34,698 nucleotides of DNA from a virus. Of this stretch, positions 29,196-34,698 are shown piece after piece. Where the stretch lies: the IMG/VR virus record IMGVR_UViG_3300044546_001066, positions 1 through 34,698 of that record, one strand, 5' to 3'. Position 1 is the first letter of the stretch, and every line of letters begins with the position of its first letter. The notes under the pieces were generated by a model that saw only the letters and a list, made by a program, of their open reading frames with translations, made no database searches and had not been told where the DNA came from. The translations under genes were made by a program, and so were the position numbers.

Positions 29196-29831
29196 CTACT
29201 TAATAATAGTTAACCAACCAAATGTATTGTCTTTTATTTTTACTTTTTGCATGATCGAATATTTATCAATTCTCGTCATATAGTAATCATCTACTATCTC
29301 AGTCTGATAGTTTTCTGCTTCTTCTAAAGTTTTAAAAATTTTGTTTGTGCCGTACAAACCGTGATTTACTTGATATCCAATTGTTGTGTCAAAACCAGAA
29401 ACTTCTTCGTCTATACTTACAAATTTTTTGAAGTTATTTTCGTCTTGAATAATTTTAAAAATGTCTAATTTTATTTCTAATTTTTCAAAATCGGCTTTTC
29501 TTGCAGTGTTATAATATTTTTTTGCATCTTTAAGGGTTTTGAATGCGACGTTTGATTTTTCAACAATATCATATACGCCAAATTCGCCGTCAACAAATTC
29601 ATAATAATTTAAAAATTGTTTAGCTAGCGATCTTATCATGTGTTCATTATTTTTGCTAAGAAATAACATGTTTATATGTTTAACTAAACCAAAATTTTGA
29701 AACGCGATGTTAGCAACTTCTCGAACAGTTTTATTATAAAGATTATATTTTTCAAAAAACTCTTTTCCAATGCCGCACATCACGTCGTCAACGAATTCTC
29801 GTGTTGTAATTACATCATCTAATACGATCAT
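29196..29831 (-). CDS. Unknown 211-aa protein in the fibre operon
   Basis: Not recognised. 211 residues, rich in Lys, Phe, Tyr, Asn and Asp. No signal peptide, membrane segment or low complexity. Two stretches resemble each other: F-K-T-L-K-D-A-K-K-Y-Y near residue 97 and F-K-T-L-E-E-A-E-N-Y near 166, suggesting a duplicated small alpha/beta unit. Its ATG overlaps the stop of the glycine-rich adhesin half (ATGA), so the two are coupled. It lies ten bases before the collagen-like fibre. A fibre-folding or attachment chaperone would fit the position, but nothing in the sequence proves it. Confidence 0.6.
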   Translation of the reverse strand: MIVLDDVITTREFVDDVMCGIGKEFFEKYNLYNKTVREVANIAFQNFGLVKHINMLFLSKNNEHMIRSLAKQFLNYYEFVDGEFGVYDIVEKSNVAFKTLKDAKKYYNTARKADFEKLEIKLDIFKIIQDENNFKKFVSIDEEVSGFDTTIGYQVNHGLYGTNKIFKTLEEAENYQTEIVDDYYMTRIDKYSIMQKVKIKDNTFGWLTIIK

Positions 29832-30184
29832 TGTAGCACTCCAAGTAATTTACCGGTATTTAACCAAGTGACTTTATCATTACCTATTACAGCAGGGCCG
29901 CCTGCTCCAGCGGAACCTGTAGAAACAGGCGACGCCGTAGAAAATACTCCTACTCCTCCAGACTGACCTAATCCACCTCCACCACCTGTAAGAGCACCAG
30001 TTGTTCCAACAGTTTTAGGAGCTCCTCCTGTTAAAAATGCGCCGTCATTACCACCAAAGCCAACACCACCGCCACCGGTTCCGGCTGGATATCCAGCTCC
30101 ACCGCTACCGCCGGTTCCATTGTTTAAAGATGGAAAGTCAATAACAATTGGTGTAATAATACACGCACAAGCACATGCACCCAT
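29828..30184 (-). CDS. Glycine-rich adhesin, C-terminal half as a separate ORF
   Basis: 118 residues. It starts MGACACACIITP, with three alternating cysteines, then about 80 residues of Gly-rich sequence (G-G-G-G-V-G-F-G-G, G-A-L-T-G-G-G-G-G-L-G). It ends G-N-D-K-V-T-W-L-N-T-G-K-L-L-G, the normal C-terminus of glycine-rich phage tip adhesins, in which runs of glycine form a polyglycine-II bundle (as in S16 gp38). Here it lacks the usual N-terminal part, which is in the neighbouring 222-aa ORF. AAGGAAG precedes the ATG, so it is translated on its own. Confidence 0.75.
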   Translation of the reverse strand: MGACACACIITPIVIDFPSLNNGTGGSGGAGYPAGTGGGGVGFGGNDGAFLTGGAPKTVGTTGALTGGGGGLGQSGGVGVFSTASPVSTGSAGAGGPAVIGNDKVTWLNTGKLLGVLQ

Positions 30185-30193
30185 AATTCTTCC

Positions 30194-30862
30194 TTAAAAA
30201 TAAGTAGATTGACACCCGGCACCGCCACCTCCGCCACCGCCAATAGTGCCACGATTATCAATATGAATAGGATATTCTACCAACAATGCTGGACCGCCAG
30301 AGGTTGCGCCAGTAGACAATACTGCGCCAACTTGAGTATTCATAGAAGAAACGTTTGGACCATAACCGCCGTTTCCACCACGTCCTAAAATAAAGCCATT
30401 GTTAATTAAACTCAATTGACTTCCAACTGGAAAATTTGCACCAGTGCTGAAACTTGCAGTATCGGTTGTTTGTGAGCCAATATATACGTTTTCAATTACA
30501 GTGATTACAGCATTTAATTTTTTAACAGTATCCCATCCATGTTCAATTGCCTTTTGACGCAGATTAAAATTAAAACAATTAAGAATAACAGTAAATGTAA
30601 ATTTAAATAAGTTTGGATCTTCTATATAGATAGGATCTTTCCACTGAAGCGTTCCAAACGGACCTGAAGATGTTAAGACCGTTCCTTGTGGTCCAGGACT
30701 GGTTAGTGCAGATGGCAATGAGACTGTTTGTTGTATAATTGTACCACCCGACGAAAATTCACCTTTTTCTACAACCCATCTAGTACCATCAAACTTAAAT
30801 CTTTTATTTGAAAACGTAACGTGCGTTTGCCCAACTACTGGATTTTTTGGAAACTGAATCAT
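30194..30862 (-). CDS. Glycine-rich adhesin, N-terminal half
   Basis: 222 residues. Residues 1-32 form a small P-K-N-P-V-V-G-Q ... F-D-G-T-R-W module common at the N-terminus of fibre proteins. A helical segment lies around 90-120. The C-terminal third is glycine-rich (L-G-R-G-G-N-G-G-Y-G, N-R-G-T-I-G-G-G-G-G-G-G-A-G) and ends abruptly A-G-C-Q-S-T-Y-F. Related adhesins continue from here into more glycine runs and a T-W-x-N-T-G end, which are found in the next ORF nine bases downstream. AAAAGG precedes the ATG. Both chains have Cys at the break point. Confidence 0.75.
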   Translation of the reverse strand: MIQFPKNPVVGQTHVTFSNKRFKFDGTRWVVEKGEFSSGGTIIQQTVSLPSALTSPGPQGTVLTSSGPFGTLQWKDPIYIEDPNLFKFTFTVILNCFNFNLRQKAIEHGWDTVKKLNAVITVIENVYIGSQTTDTASFSTGANFPVGSQLSLINNGFILGRGGNGGYGPNVSSMNTQVGAVLSTGATSGGPALLVEYPIHIDNRGTIGGGGGGGAGCQSTYF

Positions 30863-30875
30863 AGTAGACCTTTTG

Positions 30876-32726
30876 TCATTGTTTATTATTTTTTAGAGCA
30901 TCGATTTCGCTCTTTAGATTTTTGATTTCGTTACTCAGTTCTTGTATTGCATTGACCAAAATTGGCAATAAATGCGAATCCACCATTTTGAGTTTTTCTG
31001 GAGCTTCTGTATCTACTACAACGGGTTTGTCACCCTCAATTGCTAAAATATCCTGTGCGCCAAAACCATATTTAACTGGTCCGTGCGGTGTTGTTGAATC
31101 TCGTGTTTCGCGGAAACGATATTGAATTGGTTTAAGTTGGTTAACAAATTCAAGCCCATGCGGTACAGGACCGGACACAACTTTATCACGCAAATCAGAA
31201 ACAACAGTCCATGCGACCGCAATATATGCATTTGTTACGCCTGTGTGTGCAATAGACACTCTGTTGTTTTCTGTTGTACAATTATATGCAGGTGCATAAA
31301 CGCCGGATTGATTATACTGAGTACCTAATGCGGTATTGTTTGAACCAGTTGTATTAGAGTTCAGCGCGCCATTTCCGATCGACGTATTGTTTGAACCAGT
31401 TGTATTATTACCAAGTGATGACATTCCAACAGTAGTATTTGCCATGCCGGTCGTATTGTTTATAAGTGTCCACCAACCAATCGCAGTATTACTATCACCA
31501 TTAGTACTGTTCAGCAGAGCTCCAACACCAACAGCAGTATTAAATGCGCCAGTTGTATTTGCATTTAACGCTGCTTTTCCTACTGCGGTATTGTCTGATC
31601 CAGTAGTATTGCTTATAAGTGTCCACCAACCTACTGCTGTATTGTAATTTCCTGAAGTATTAGAGTTCAGCGCGCCATCACCGACCGCTGTATTGTTTGA
31701 ACCAGTTGTATTATTACCAAGAGATACTAAACCAACGGCTGTATTCATCGACCCTGTAGTGTTATTGATAAGTGACCAATAACCAGCTGCGGTGTTATTA
31801 TAACCGGTTGTATTATTAAGAAGAGCACCTACACCAAAAGCAGAATTAGCTGATCCACTAATATTTTTACCCATCGCACCATGTCCAACAGCAGTATTAT
31901 TTCCACCGGTAGTATTATCGCGAAGCGCTCCGTGACCTAGAGCAGTATTATAACTACTTACGTTTTTTTGCAGAGAATATGCGCCAACAGAAGTATTAAA
32001 AGCTCCATTAATATTAGTCTCTTGCGCTTTATGACCAACTGCTGTATTTTCGTCAGAATCAACATTTTGTCCAGCGCCAAATCCAATAACAATATTTCGT
32101 TTACCTTTTGTCGTGCTCTTTAGCGAATTAACATTATCAACATTGATATTTTCAGTTAGTTTGTCTACGATTAAATTGCTATTTCCACCTCCGGCTCCGG
32201 TTTGAGGGCAAAAGTCTACCCAACCAGTACCGCTCCAAATAAAACCACGATCTTCAATAGAAGAATCGTACCATAGCTGACCTATGCTAGGATTAATTGG
32301 TGGATTATCTCCAATAAAAACTACTGAATTAGTTACAGCAGTTATTTCAGAAGTTCTTACAGACGTAACTAACCCTTTAGAGTTAACCGTTATAATAGGA
32401 ATTCTTTCTCCAGAACCAAATTGACCAACATTTGGATTAACTTGATTTAGTGTTAAATCTCCTTTAACGTCGTTTTTTCCGTTAAAATAAACAGACCAAG
32501 CTCCGTCTCCCTCAATCTGAATTTTTCTATCTAACGGAGTTGTATTTTTTTCTATGACAACAACTTTCTGTTCAATGTTTCCAACAATATTTTTTAATTG
32601 TGCTGTATCATTGTCCAACGATTTAAAGTTTGCATCAATTTCAGAATGCGTAAGAGGAGAATTTTTAACGTATGTTGCGCCTGGAATGACAGGACTAGAA
32701 TTTACACGATATGTTATATTTGCCAT
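30876..32726 (-). CDS. Repeat fibre with S74 intramolecular chaperone
   Basis: 616 residues. An N-terminal virion-binding and linker region (1-200) includes a small G-Q-L-W-Y-D ... W-S-G-T-G-W module. About 15 units of 17 residues (N-T-A-V-G-x-x-A-L-x-x-N-T-T-G-x-x) follow at about 212-470, resembling the trimeric left-handed helix of YadA-type adhesin heads. The C-terminal 110 residues are a peptidase S74 chaperone: S-D-L-R-D-K-V near 507, G-L-E-F-V-N-Q-L-K-P, Y-G-F-G-A-Q-D, and a coiled-coil end (N-A-I-Q-E-L-S-N-E-I). The S-D pair at its start is the expected self-cleavage point. It is a trimeric receptor-binding fibre by family. Confidence 0.9.
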   Translation of the reverse strand: MANITYRVNSSPVIPGATYVKNSPLTHSEIDANFKSLDNDTAQLKNIVGNIEQKVVVIEKNTTPLDRKIQIEGDGAWSVYFNGKNDVKGDLTLNQVNPNVGQFGSGERIPIITVNSKGLVTSVRTSEITAVTNSVVFIGDNPPINPSIGQLWYDSSIEDRGFIWSGTGWVDFCPQTGAGGGNSNLIVDKLTENINVDNVNSLKSTTKGKRNIVIGFGAGQNVDSDENTAVGHKAQETNINGAFNTSVGAYSLQKNVSSYNTALGHGALRDNTTGGNNTAVGHGAMGKNISGSANSAFGVGALLNNTTGYNNTAAGYWSLINNTTGSMNTAVGLVSLGNNTTGSNNTAVGDGALNSNTSGNYNTAVGWWTLISNTTGSDNTAVGKAALNANTTGAFNTAVGVGALLNSTNGDSNTAIGWWTLINNTTGMANTTVGMSSLGNNTTGSNNTSIGNGALNSNTTGSNNTALGTQYNQSGVYAPAYNCTTENNRVSIAHTGVTNAYIAVAWTVVSDLRDKVVSGPVPHGLEFVNQLKPIQYRFRETRDSTTPHGPVKYGFGAQDILAIEGDKPVVVDTEAPEKLKMVDSHLLPILVNAIQELSNEIKNLKSEIDALKNNKQ

Positions 32727-32731
32727 ATTGA

Positions 32732-32938
32732 TTAATCCAGGTTAACAGATTTAAATGGCTCTAAATCTTCGTCTGTCCAAAATTTTTGTTCAAGAAGTTT
32801 TTTAATGTACTGTTTATTTCCATTCATTAAAAAATCCCAGTCAGTTTGACCAATATATTCAGGTTTTTCCATCTGAATAACTTTAATGGATTCTAATCCA
32901 TCTTCATAATAGTTTTGTATTAATTCTTTTGTTAACAT
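32732..32938 (-). CDS. Small protein related to the 71-aa protein across the radical SAM gene
   Basis: 68 residues. The C-terminal half (N-K-Q-Y-I-K-K-L-L-E-Q-K-F-W-T-D-E-D-L-E-P-F) aligns without gaps to the 71-aa protein at 34289-34504 (N-K-Q-H-V-E-I-M-L-K-R-D-Y-W-T-T-E-D-L-D-P-F); the N-terminal halves differ. It lies four bases after the radical SAM stop and five before the S74 fibre, with no clear ribosome site. It could be a fibre-assembly accessory protein, or a substrate or partner of the enzyme. No known motif was recognised. Confidence 0.65.
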   Translation of the reverse strand: MLTKELIQNYYEDGLESIKVIQMEKPEYIGQTDWDFLMNGNKQYIKKLLEQKFWTDEDLEPFKSVNLD

Positions 32939-32942
32939 ATAA

Positions 32943-34289
32943 TTAGATTAATTCAGTTTTAACTGGTACTGGAAATGGTTTTTTAATTTTTAAACCTTCA
33001 CCAAATATATTTTTTCTATCTTCTGGAATATTAACACCTTCTAAACGGAATGGTTTAAAACCACCCGAAAAATAAGTAATAATATACGACAGCAGTGCTA
33101 TATTATCGTCATAACTTGTATCACAAGATTTGGAATATTTATCACCAGTCAAGAACATGCAACTTCCCTGACACAGTTGTAATACAGGACAATCACTACA
33201 CAATTTTCTAGTCGACCAGTGATGCGCTGTATTTAATTTAGCATTTTCTATATCGTCGAGCGTTCCAATTATATGCGACGTGCCAGATTCAGTTGTAGAT
33301 TTTGCTGAAACATTTTGACACGTTAATAAATTTCCATTAAGATCTACTGCTATTGAACCAGGTAAATCCATTCCGCATTTTTGAGATAGCGAGTCAGATG
33401 TTATTCCATATGAAATTGAAAATACAAATTTTAAGAATTTTTGATTTAAGTTTGTATAATTTTGAAGTATGTTTTTGCTCAGATCAGTATACAATTTGTT
33501 TCGAACATAAAAGTGATCCTTTTCTTCAACTAGCAGGCTGAATCCGTCTTCGTCATACGCATCAATGAAGCCACCTTCACCAATTGGAACAGATTCATTA
33601 TTTGTTATAGTCTTAAACCAATCAAGTGTTTTGGCTCTGTCAAAAGAATTTTTATGCATCATTGCATTAAGACTAATTTTACCGTGCAGCTGAAGACGAT
33701 TAAACAACTCTAAAATAAATGGATTTGACTCTAATGGATCTGTTCCCCTAAAAGCTTGACCGGGACCGTCATGACTAATACCAATTTCGAATTGATTTTC
33801 TACCAACCAATCATTTATTTCTTGATTTAATAGTGATCCATTTGTTACTATTGAAAATTCAGCAAAACCGTAAATTAATTTTAATTTCTCAGCAAGTGGT
33901 TGTAGAGTTTTCCAGTATACTAAAGGTTCGCCACCCCAAAATTCAAACTTTACACGCGCATTTTTATCTAGAACTCGTTCTATTTTTTTAACAAAGTCAT
34001 CAACGTCATTTTTATTGGTGGATTCCGCACGCGGGACGTACTTTTGACTACAATAATCACATGAGTAATTGCAATTAAGACCAAGCTGAATTTTTATTAA
34101 TTTTAAATCTCGCGATTTTTTTCCAGGATTGTCTGGATGAACCTGCTCGGCTTTTGGTAATTTAAAATCAGCACTTTTTAGTGGTATTAAACTTTTTCCA
34201 AACTCGTCTACAAGTGTAGATTTGTGTTGATCGTAAAAAAAAGTTTTAAAAATTCCTTGATTGTTTTTAGTGCTGATTTTAATAGTCAT
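32943..34289 (-). CDS. Radical SAM enzyme with SPASM domain (peptide-maturase type)
   Basis: 448 residues. L-N-C-N-Y-S-C-D-Y-C at 71-80 is the CxxxCxxC site for the SAM-binding 4Fe-4S cluster. G-G-E-P at 119-122 and I-V-T-N-G at 147-151 follow as in the family. The C-terminal cysteines C305, C324, C364, C367, C373, C377 and C389 have SPASM spacing (C...G-N-x-x-x-C, C-x-x-C-x-x-x-x-x-C-x-x-x-C...C), which binds auxiliary 4Fe-4S clusters. Members include sulfatase-maturing enzymes and RiPP maturases acting on peptide or protein side chains. Its ATG overlaps the stop of the 71-aa gene (TAATG), so it is translationally coupled. The substrate is unknown; candidates are the flanking small proteins or fibre proteins. 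Confidence 0.92.
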   Translation of the reverse strand: MTIKISTKNNQGIFKTFFYDQHKSTLVDEFGKSLIPLKSADFKLPKAEQVHPDNPGKKSRDLKLIKIQLGLNCNYSCDYCSQKYVPRAESTNKNDVDDFVKKIERVLDKNARVKFEFWGGEPLVYWKTLQPLAEKLKLIYGFAEFSIVTNGSLLNQEINDWLVENQFEIGISHDGPGQAFRGTDPLESNPFILELFNRLQLHGKISLNAMMHKNSFDRAKTLDWFKTITNNESVPIGEGGFIDAYDEDGFSLLVEEKDHFYVRNKLYTDLSKNILQNYTNLNQKFLKFVFSISYGITSDSLSQKCGMDLPGSIAVDLNGNLLTCQNVSAKSTTESGTSHIIGTLDDIENAKLNTAHHWSTRKLCSDCPVLQLCQGSCMFLTGDKYSKSCDTSYDDNIALLSYIITYFSGGFKPFRLEGVNIPEDRKNIFGEGLKIKKPFPVPVKTELI

Positions 34290-34504
34290 TACAAAATTGC
34301 TGTTCTAAAAGGATCCAGATCCTCAGTTGTCCAATAATCACGTTTCAACATAATTTCAACGTGCTGCTTGTTTCTATTTAACGTGTCAGTTTCTTCTTTT
34401 GTCAAGCTTTCTTTAGCTTTGAGTTTATTAATCAATTCAACACTGTGAAGCGTTGACTCGTATTGTTGTTTGATTTCTTCAGCAGTGTATTCAATTTTAT
34501 ACAT
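34289..34504 (-). CDS. Small protein coupled to the radical SAM gene
   Basis: 71 residues, charged, mostly helical by appearance. It shares its C-terminal W-T-x-E-D-L-(D/E)-P-F and the preceding helix with the 68-aa protein on the other side of the radical SAM gene. It has no cysteine. AAGGAAA lies before the ATG, and the stop overlaps the enzyme's start (TAATG). It could be a precursor peptide, an enzyme partner, or a virion accessory protein. I do not recognise a named family with confidence. Confidence 0.65.
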   Translation of the reverse strand: MYKIEYTAEEIKQQYESTLHSVELINKLKAKESLTKEETDTLNRNKQHVEIMLKRDYWTTEDLDPFRTAIL

Positions 34505-34556: not shown

Positions 34557-34559
34557 TTG

Positions 34560-34698
<139 letters not shown>

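Follow-up and report, generated by a model that had tools for sequence, protein, structure and literature searches.

A phage radical SAM/SPASM enzyme family encoded beside cysteine-tract tail-fibre proteins, with a split Gp38-like adhesin as candidate substrate in a T4-like fragment

Why does a phage encode a radical SAM/SPASM enzyme between two small proteins in the midst of its tail genes, and on what does this enzyme act? The gene lies in a window of 34,698 nucleotides (the whole stretch of DNA analysed here), which comes from a larger T4-like genome, and it is surrounded by T4-like structural genes for terminase, portal, sheath, tube, gp6 (closest relative in Methylophilales phage Melnitz, 37%), gp25, a collagen-like fibre, a Gp38-like adhesin and an S74 fibre. 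A first-pass annotation made from the sequence alone had described an intact SPASM enzyme between two related small proteins next to adhesin genes, and this arrangement was recovered, with all three ORFs on the minus strand:

34289 to 34504, minus strand: small protein A, 71 aa, no cysteine, coupled with the start of the enzyme (TAATG); belongs to an S74-fibre-associated family, judged not to be a substrate
32943 to 34289, minus strand: radical SAM/SPASM enzyme, 448 aa (Pfam, NCBIfam, alignment, AlphaFold2 model)
34050 to 34073, minus strand: radical SAM cluster motif CNYSCDYC, residues 73-80 of the enzyme (cysteines invariant in alignments)
33123 to 33377, minus strand: SPASM domain of the enzyme, seven cysteines from C305 to C389, without a counterpart of the fourth Aux I ligand of anaerobic sulfatase-maturating enzyme (anSME)
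32732 to 32938, minus strand: small protein B, 68 aa, no cysteine, same family as A, directly upstream of the S74 fibre gene, judged not to be a substrate
30876 to 32726, minus strand: tail fibre with a C-terminal S74 chaperone domain, 616 aa (domain and profile matches)

The S74 fibre contains many TAVGxxALxxNTTG-type repeats, which resemble trimeric-adhesin head repeats. At the other end of the block, a gene cut by the fragment edge (34559 to 34698) ends in about ten threonines, encoded by an ACA repeat on the minus strand.

The enzyme is a member of the radical SAM/SPASM superfamily by its cluster motif, its SPASM cysteines and its scores for Pfam Radical_SAM (41 bits, cut-off 29.5) and the NCBIfam SPASM-domain model TIGR04085 (34 bits, cut-off 27). 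C73, C77 and C80 form the cluster motif CX3CX2C, and the SPASM cysteines C305, C324, C364, C367, C373, C377 and C389 follow the pattern CX9-15GX4C...CX2CX5CX3C...C, with the spacing C305-x13-G319-x4-C324, C364-x2-C367-x5-C373-x3-C377 and a final C389. Relatives were gathered from IMG/VR, GTDB genomes and phages; the three radical-cluster and seven SPASM cysteines are invariant across 60 aligned relatives, and because the window enzyme keeps them, together with every other residue invariant in this alignment, it looks intact, as the first reading had held. An AlphaFold2 model (pLDDT 93.4) has CteB and anSME as its nearest folds and begins with a short beta sheet of three short strands, in which no wHTH was seen. 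The phage protein family phrog_1802 matches residues 22-391 at E = 1.1e-60, which places the enzyme within that family. It has no close relative (best about 48%), and in a quick tree it sits on a long branch, grouped weakly (86%) with loci that have CAC-unit tracts such as CACACW.

The first-pass annotation took the flanking small proteins for possible RiPP-like precursors carrying a shared W-T-x-E-D-L-x-P-F, and the arrangement invites this reading, as the two adjoin the enzyme as a related pair of which one is coupled to it. Their homology was confirmed (36% identity, 67% similarity, pairwise E = 2e-13), and the coupling also stood: the ORF of small protein A shares one base with the start of the enzyme ORF (TAATG), and a Shine-Dalgarno match (AAGGA) was found before that ORF and none at the enzyme start, a configuration consistent with translational coupling. 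The motif is indeed common to both proteins, but it is not specific to the enzyme. WTTEDL is the constant signature of a widespread phage family with at least 551 relatives in IMG/VR, whose genes usually lie 0-30 bases behind a fibre gene ending in an S74 chaperone coiled coil, and it is constant also in records without the enzyme, which argues against its being a modified site. Motif and position assign both small proteins to this family of S74 tail-fibre operons, small protein B lying upstream of its S74 fibre, unlike the usual downstream place. Neither protein has a cysteine, and co-occurrence fails in both directions, with the enzyme present in 0 of 50 tested records carrying the small-protein family and a detectable relative of the small proteins at 0 of 167 enzyme loci, so that a precursor role is very improbable. 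Judged by sequence and gene neighbourhood, we take the small proteins to be companions of the fibre operon, not dedicated substrates of the enzyme; they are perhaps assembly factors. The neighbourhood analysis that the annotation had itself suggested thus tells against these two proteins as targets, but not against its larger idea of a phage system for modifying tail parts.

The partner found at the enzyme loci is a different one. A same-strand ORF with a CxCxC tract is present at 141 of the 167 loci. After dereplication at 90% identity, 90 loci with at least 3 kb upstream were kept, and 79 of these have a nearby same-strand Cys-X-Cys-X-Cys protein, mostly with CNCNCNC, while 11 have no detectable tract; within 4 kb upstream, tract matches number 90 on the enzyme strand vs 10 on the other. 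The tract gene precedes the enzyme gene in nearly all of these relatives, and the tract mostly lies 5-20 aa from the C-terminus of a protein that is tail-fibre-like by neighbours and profiles. Achromobacter phages JWF and 2-1, like many contigs, encode the enzyme behind a tail-fibre-like protein whose tracts are of the CNCDCNCNC type. The residues interleaved with the cysteines are N (62%), A (17%) and D (11%), percentages that are biased by the search pattern. One tract protein at a related locus has an N-terminal domain in common with a Gp38-like adhesin, which links the two protein types.

Several tract proteins have further peculiarities. About a dozen continue after the tract into another domain of 170-230 residues, which in most is a Hint (intein-like) domain directly following the tract (L007 5838-7286, from Achromobacter phage JWF, L008, L017, L025, L027, L120, L155-L157 and L160; confirmed by profile in JWF and identified by sequence at the other loci); autoprocessing by Hint could expose the tract at a new C-terminus. 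At seven loci (L011, L020, L026, L028, L042, L046 and L051), two or three short tract paralogues of about 90-120 aa stand in tandem upstream of the enzyme. L080 (8641-9150) encodes, beside the enzyme, a tract-protein homologue with 8 cysteines and no CxCxC, possibly a degenerate or alternative substrate.

The association also holds when it is read from the tract to the enzyme. An independent scan of IMG/VR DNA for CNCNCNC returned 80 loci, of which 43 were plausibly coding; in 36 the pattern was out of frame or fell within a trivial ORF, and one 1.4-kb locus was set aside. Matches to the enzyme profile were obtained in 37 of the 43 coding viral records (34 at E < 1e-80), a set that was picked by eye before the enzyme search and whose records are not fully independent, vs none of the 36 out-of-frame controls (Fisher P about 1e-16). 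When the window's own GACACAC served as the pattern, most hits were non-genic noise and one was a convincing tail-type coding case, L444, whose record has the enzyme at 3e-154. At that locus (L444 1-7559), four consecutive tail-protein paralogues ending in CACNC-type tracts are followed by a protein of 331 aa with no known function, several oxygenase-like genes and the enzyme. Three further CNCNCNC records (G004, G008 and G013, those of L175, L181 and L190) have the coding tract in non-fibre-like proteins and several more distant SPASM enzymes each, perhaps a second pairing of tract and enzyme.

We conclude that the enzyme family sits beside cysteine-tract tail-fibre proteins in more than a hundred further phages and prophages. 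A phage system modifying tail parts is well supported at this family level, and the survey strongly favours the earlier suggestion that the target of the SPASM enzyme is a tail or fibre protein. The two-way association with tracts also bears on the reading that this is an ordinary auxiliary radical SAM enzyme, serving sulfatase activation or host metabolism, that came to lie in a tail block by chance: the homologue in Achromobacter phage JWF is annotated as sulfatase-maturating, but with the anSME residues missing and the tract found from both directions, we regard such a role as highly unlikely.

Which protein is the substrate in the window itself? Where the first reading spoke of adhesin genes, the adhesin downstream is a single Gp38-like protein divided between two ORFs in the same frame:

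30194 to 30862, minus strand: Gp38-like tail-tip adhesin, N-terminal part, 222 aa, ending ...GGGGGGAGCQSTYF (Pfam GP38, 33.5 bits, cut-off 25)
30185 to 30196, minus strand: in-frame TAA followed by a strong Shine-Dalgarno sequence, splitting the adhesin in a loop between glycine-rich motifs
30161 to 30175, minus strand: CACAC tract at residues 4-8 of MGACACACII, a candidate site of modification (shuffle P about 0.006)
29828 to 30184, minus strand: Gp38-like adhesin, C-terminal part, 118 aa, with its own start, candidate substrate

The Pfam match and the poly-glycine motifs identify the protein as a Gp38 tail-tip adhesin, of which the window holds no unsplit form; positions 68-164 of phrog_2056 correspond to the N-terminal part and positions 168-264 to the C-terminal part. 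Against three Gp38-like proteins that Burkholderiales phages encode in unsplit form, none of which has a CxC, the split and the cysteine segment stand out as an insertion, with a glycine-rich motif on either side. Loops between such motifs bind the receptor in PP01 and S16 (PMC12892980). No CxCxC other than this CACAC is encoded by the genes of the window, and within-protein shuffles produce one in 0.6% of cases. No close relative of the N-terminal part was found in IMG/VR, and tblastn of the C-terminal part against phages gave no match. Since 23 genes of the window terminate in TAA and the Shine-Dalgarno match at the split is one of the two longest in the window, re-initiation is the preferred explanation of how the second part would be made; stop-codon readthrough or recoding was rejected on the same grounds, and the split could also be a nonsense mutation or an assembly error. 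A protein of 211 aa (29196-29831) overlaps the end of the adhesin gene; it has no confident family, and tblastn found no phage relative.

Because it carries the only CACAC, at a receptor-loop position, because Gp38-like proteins are linked to tract proteins elsewhere and because the enzyme groups weakly with CAC-tract loci, the adhesin is the best substrate candidate for the window enzyme, with about an even chance, or a little better, of being the true one. Its tract departs from the family pattern in having three cysteines, in lying near the N-terminus and in having Ala rather than Asn between the cysteines, and its gene is 2.8 kb downstream of the enzyme, opposite to the upstream place usual in relatives. 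This last point would be explained if the enzyme acted on a CNC-tract fibre encoded beyond the 34.7-kb fragment and the adhesin CACAC were incidental, a possibility to which the larger T4-like genome lends room, as the fragment ends only 194 bases upstream of the small protein A gene. The improbability of CACAC by chance, its place in the receptor loop and the edge-cut gene, whose polythreonine end has no cysteine tract, speak against an external substrate, which we consider unlikely though deserving of weight. The adhesin tract as the substrate of the window's own enzyme is graded here as only probable.

Taking these observations together, we propose with moderate confidence that a ranthipeptide-like late enzyme of the phage cross-links Cys-X-Cys tracts on the phage's own receptor-binding tips, and that its substrate in the window is likely the adhesin. 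The targets of this uncurated radical SAM/SPASM family would be Cys-X-Cys tracts, with Asn, Ala or Asp as the usual X, that lie exposed on the tip of a receptor-binding tail protein. SAM would be cleaved at the N-terminal cluster (C73, C77, C80), and the 5'-deoxyadenosyl radical would abstract a hydrogen from one of the Asn, Ala or Asp residues between the cysteines. A tract cysteine bound at the open site of Aux I would add to the carbon concerned, giving a thioether cross-link like those of ranthipeptides and of the protein subunit modified by QhpD. For the phage of the window, the substrate would be the Gp38-like adhesin, with GACACACII in the receptor-loop position, and the product a rigid or metal-binding tip touching the host. 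The analysis shows the enzyme family, its conserved cluster ligands, its association in both directions with tract-bearing tail-fibre-like proteins and the lone CACAC of the split adhesin; we infer that the tract is what the enzyme modifies, that thioethers are formed, that they serve the tip and that the window adhesin is the target.

Thioether cross-linking is the favoured reaction, by analogy, because the enzyme has seven SPASM cysteines with a presumably open Aux I site and because Asn and Asp, which can be acceptors in ranthipeptides, are together with Ala the dominant residues between the tract cysteines. Neither the cysteine that we take to be the fourth Aux I ligand of anSME nor the Asp presumed to matter beside the following cysteine is conserved in the enzyme family. 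An Aux I site open to a substrate thiol, with seven SPASM cysteines, has been seen in CteB and argued for AlbA (PMC6231123), and Asn, Asp and Thr are known acceptors in such thioether links (PMC8326336). Families resembling 2OG-Fe(II) oxygenases lie near the enzyme at 66 of 102 loci (three of the five families identified by Pfam, two of these above cut-off). Such neighbours make other chemistry on the same protein plausible, and the enzyme might then be no cross-linker at all, altering the tract otherwise (formylglycine formation, C-H chemistry on Asn or Asp, epimerisation) or helping to load a metal centre, Fe-S or other, into it. Metal binding is within the capacity of dense CxC tracts, and anSME is among the nearest folds; however, the anSME aspartate is not conserved, the Aux I ligand set is CteB-type and the nearest curated families are thioether formers, and we rate this class of activities as possible but less likely, keeping thioether cross-linking as the working proposal.

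Other genes recur around the enzyme. At L005, L083 and L107 it stands beside a protein of 390-410 aa with a flavin (tryptophan) halogenase-like N-terminus, together with oxygenase-like proteins, and L005 and L083 also encode a second radical SAM-like protein, the halogenase-like and second radical SAM assignments both resting on sequence reading only; these three loci appear to be multi-enzyme modification clusters in viruses. A conserved protein of about 288 aa with no confident Pfam family is encoded near the tract gene and the enzyme at 54 of 102 loci, including L020, about 0.9-3 kb upstream of the enzyme. No oxygenase-like, halogenase-like or second radical SAM gene was recognised in the window's fibre block.

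More broadly, we suggest tentatively, at somewhat less than an even chance, that a dedicated pathway in numerous tailed phages and prophages, with mainly proteobacterial hosts, turns the receptor-contacting fibre tip into a RiPP-like structure, cross-linked or metal-binding, and that this pathway would consist of a radical SAM cross-linker, often joined by 2OG-type oxygenases and sometimes by a flavin halogenase-like protein. If so, phages use radical enzymes of a kind familiar from the biosynthesis of peptide natural products to tailor their own fibre tips, and host range or adsorption would depend on a post-translational modification that is unreadable from the fibre sequence, a hidden layer of host recognition missed by sequence-based host prediction and by fibre studies. 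It would also give phrog_1802 a function, explain the CNC-ended tail proteins and provide a large natural set of thioether-type maturases that act on proteins. The tract link of phrog_1802 is new here: in a search confined to open-access literature we found no earlier description of phage-encoded RiPPs, of radical SAM enzymes with tail fibres or of CNCNC.

Among known systems, the ranthipeptide maturases PapB, CteB and NxxcB are also SPASM enzymes, CteB with a three-cysteine Aux I, and SCIFF and freyrasin precursors resemble the tracts in being cysteine-rich with Asn and Asp between the cysteines. A cysteine-rich candidate substrate near the enzyme is likewise found at most loci of the family described here, and in the window it is represented only by the CACAC of the split adhesin. 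The best NCBIfam matches of the enzyme are PapB (NF047865, 76.5 bits, cut-off 340) and the quinohemoprotein maturase QhpD (TIGR03906, 69.5 bits, cut-off 453), both so far below cut-off that membership in either family is not claimed; anSME (59.3 bits, cut-off 349) also falls short. Ranthipeptides differ in their C-x3-D or N-xx-C spacing, as against CxCxC, and here the substrate would be a phage tail-fibre-like protein, the tract is usually C-terminal and no RRE was seen. QhpD, also a radical SAM/SPASM enzyme, makes Cys-Asp/Glu thioethers inside a protein and not in a secreted peptide (PMC8326336), but its target is a dehydrogenase subunit, not a virion protein. phrog_1802, the phage radical SAM domain-containing proteins, has the window enzyme as a clear member, and PHROGs gives it no function or substrate. 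On the substrate side, Gp38 of T2, S16 and PP01 likewise has poly-glycine motifs and, at the tip of the fibre, variable loops that bind the receptor (PMC12892980), whereas the window protein is split at one loop position, in a loop that carries CACAC.
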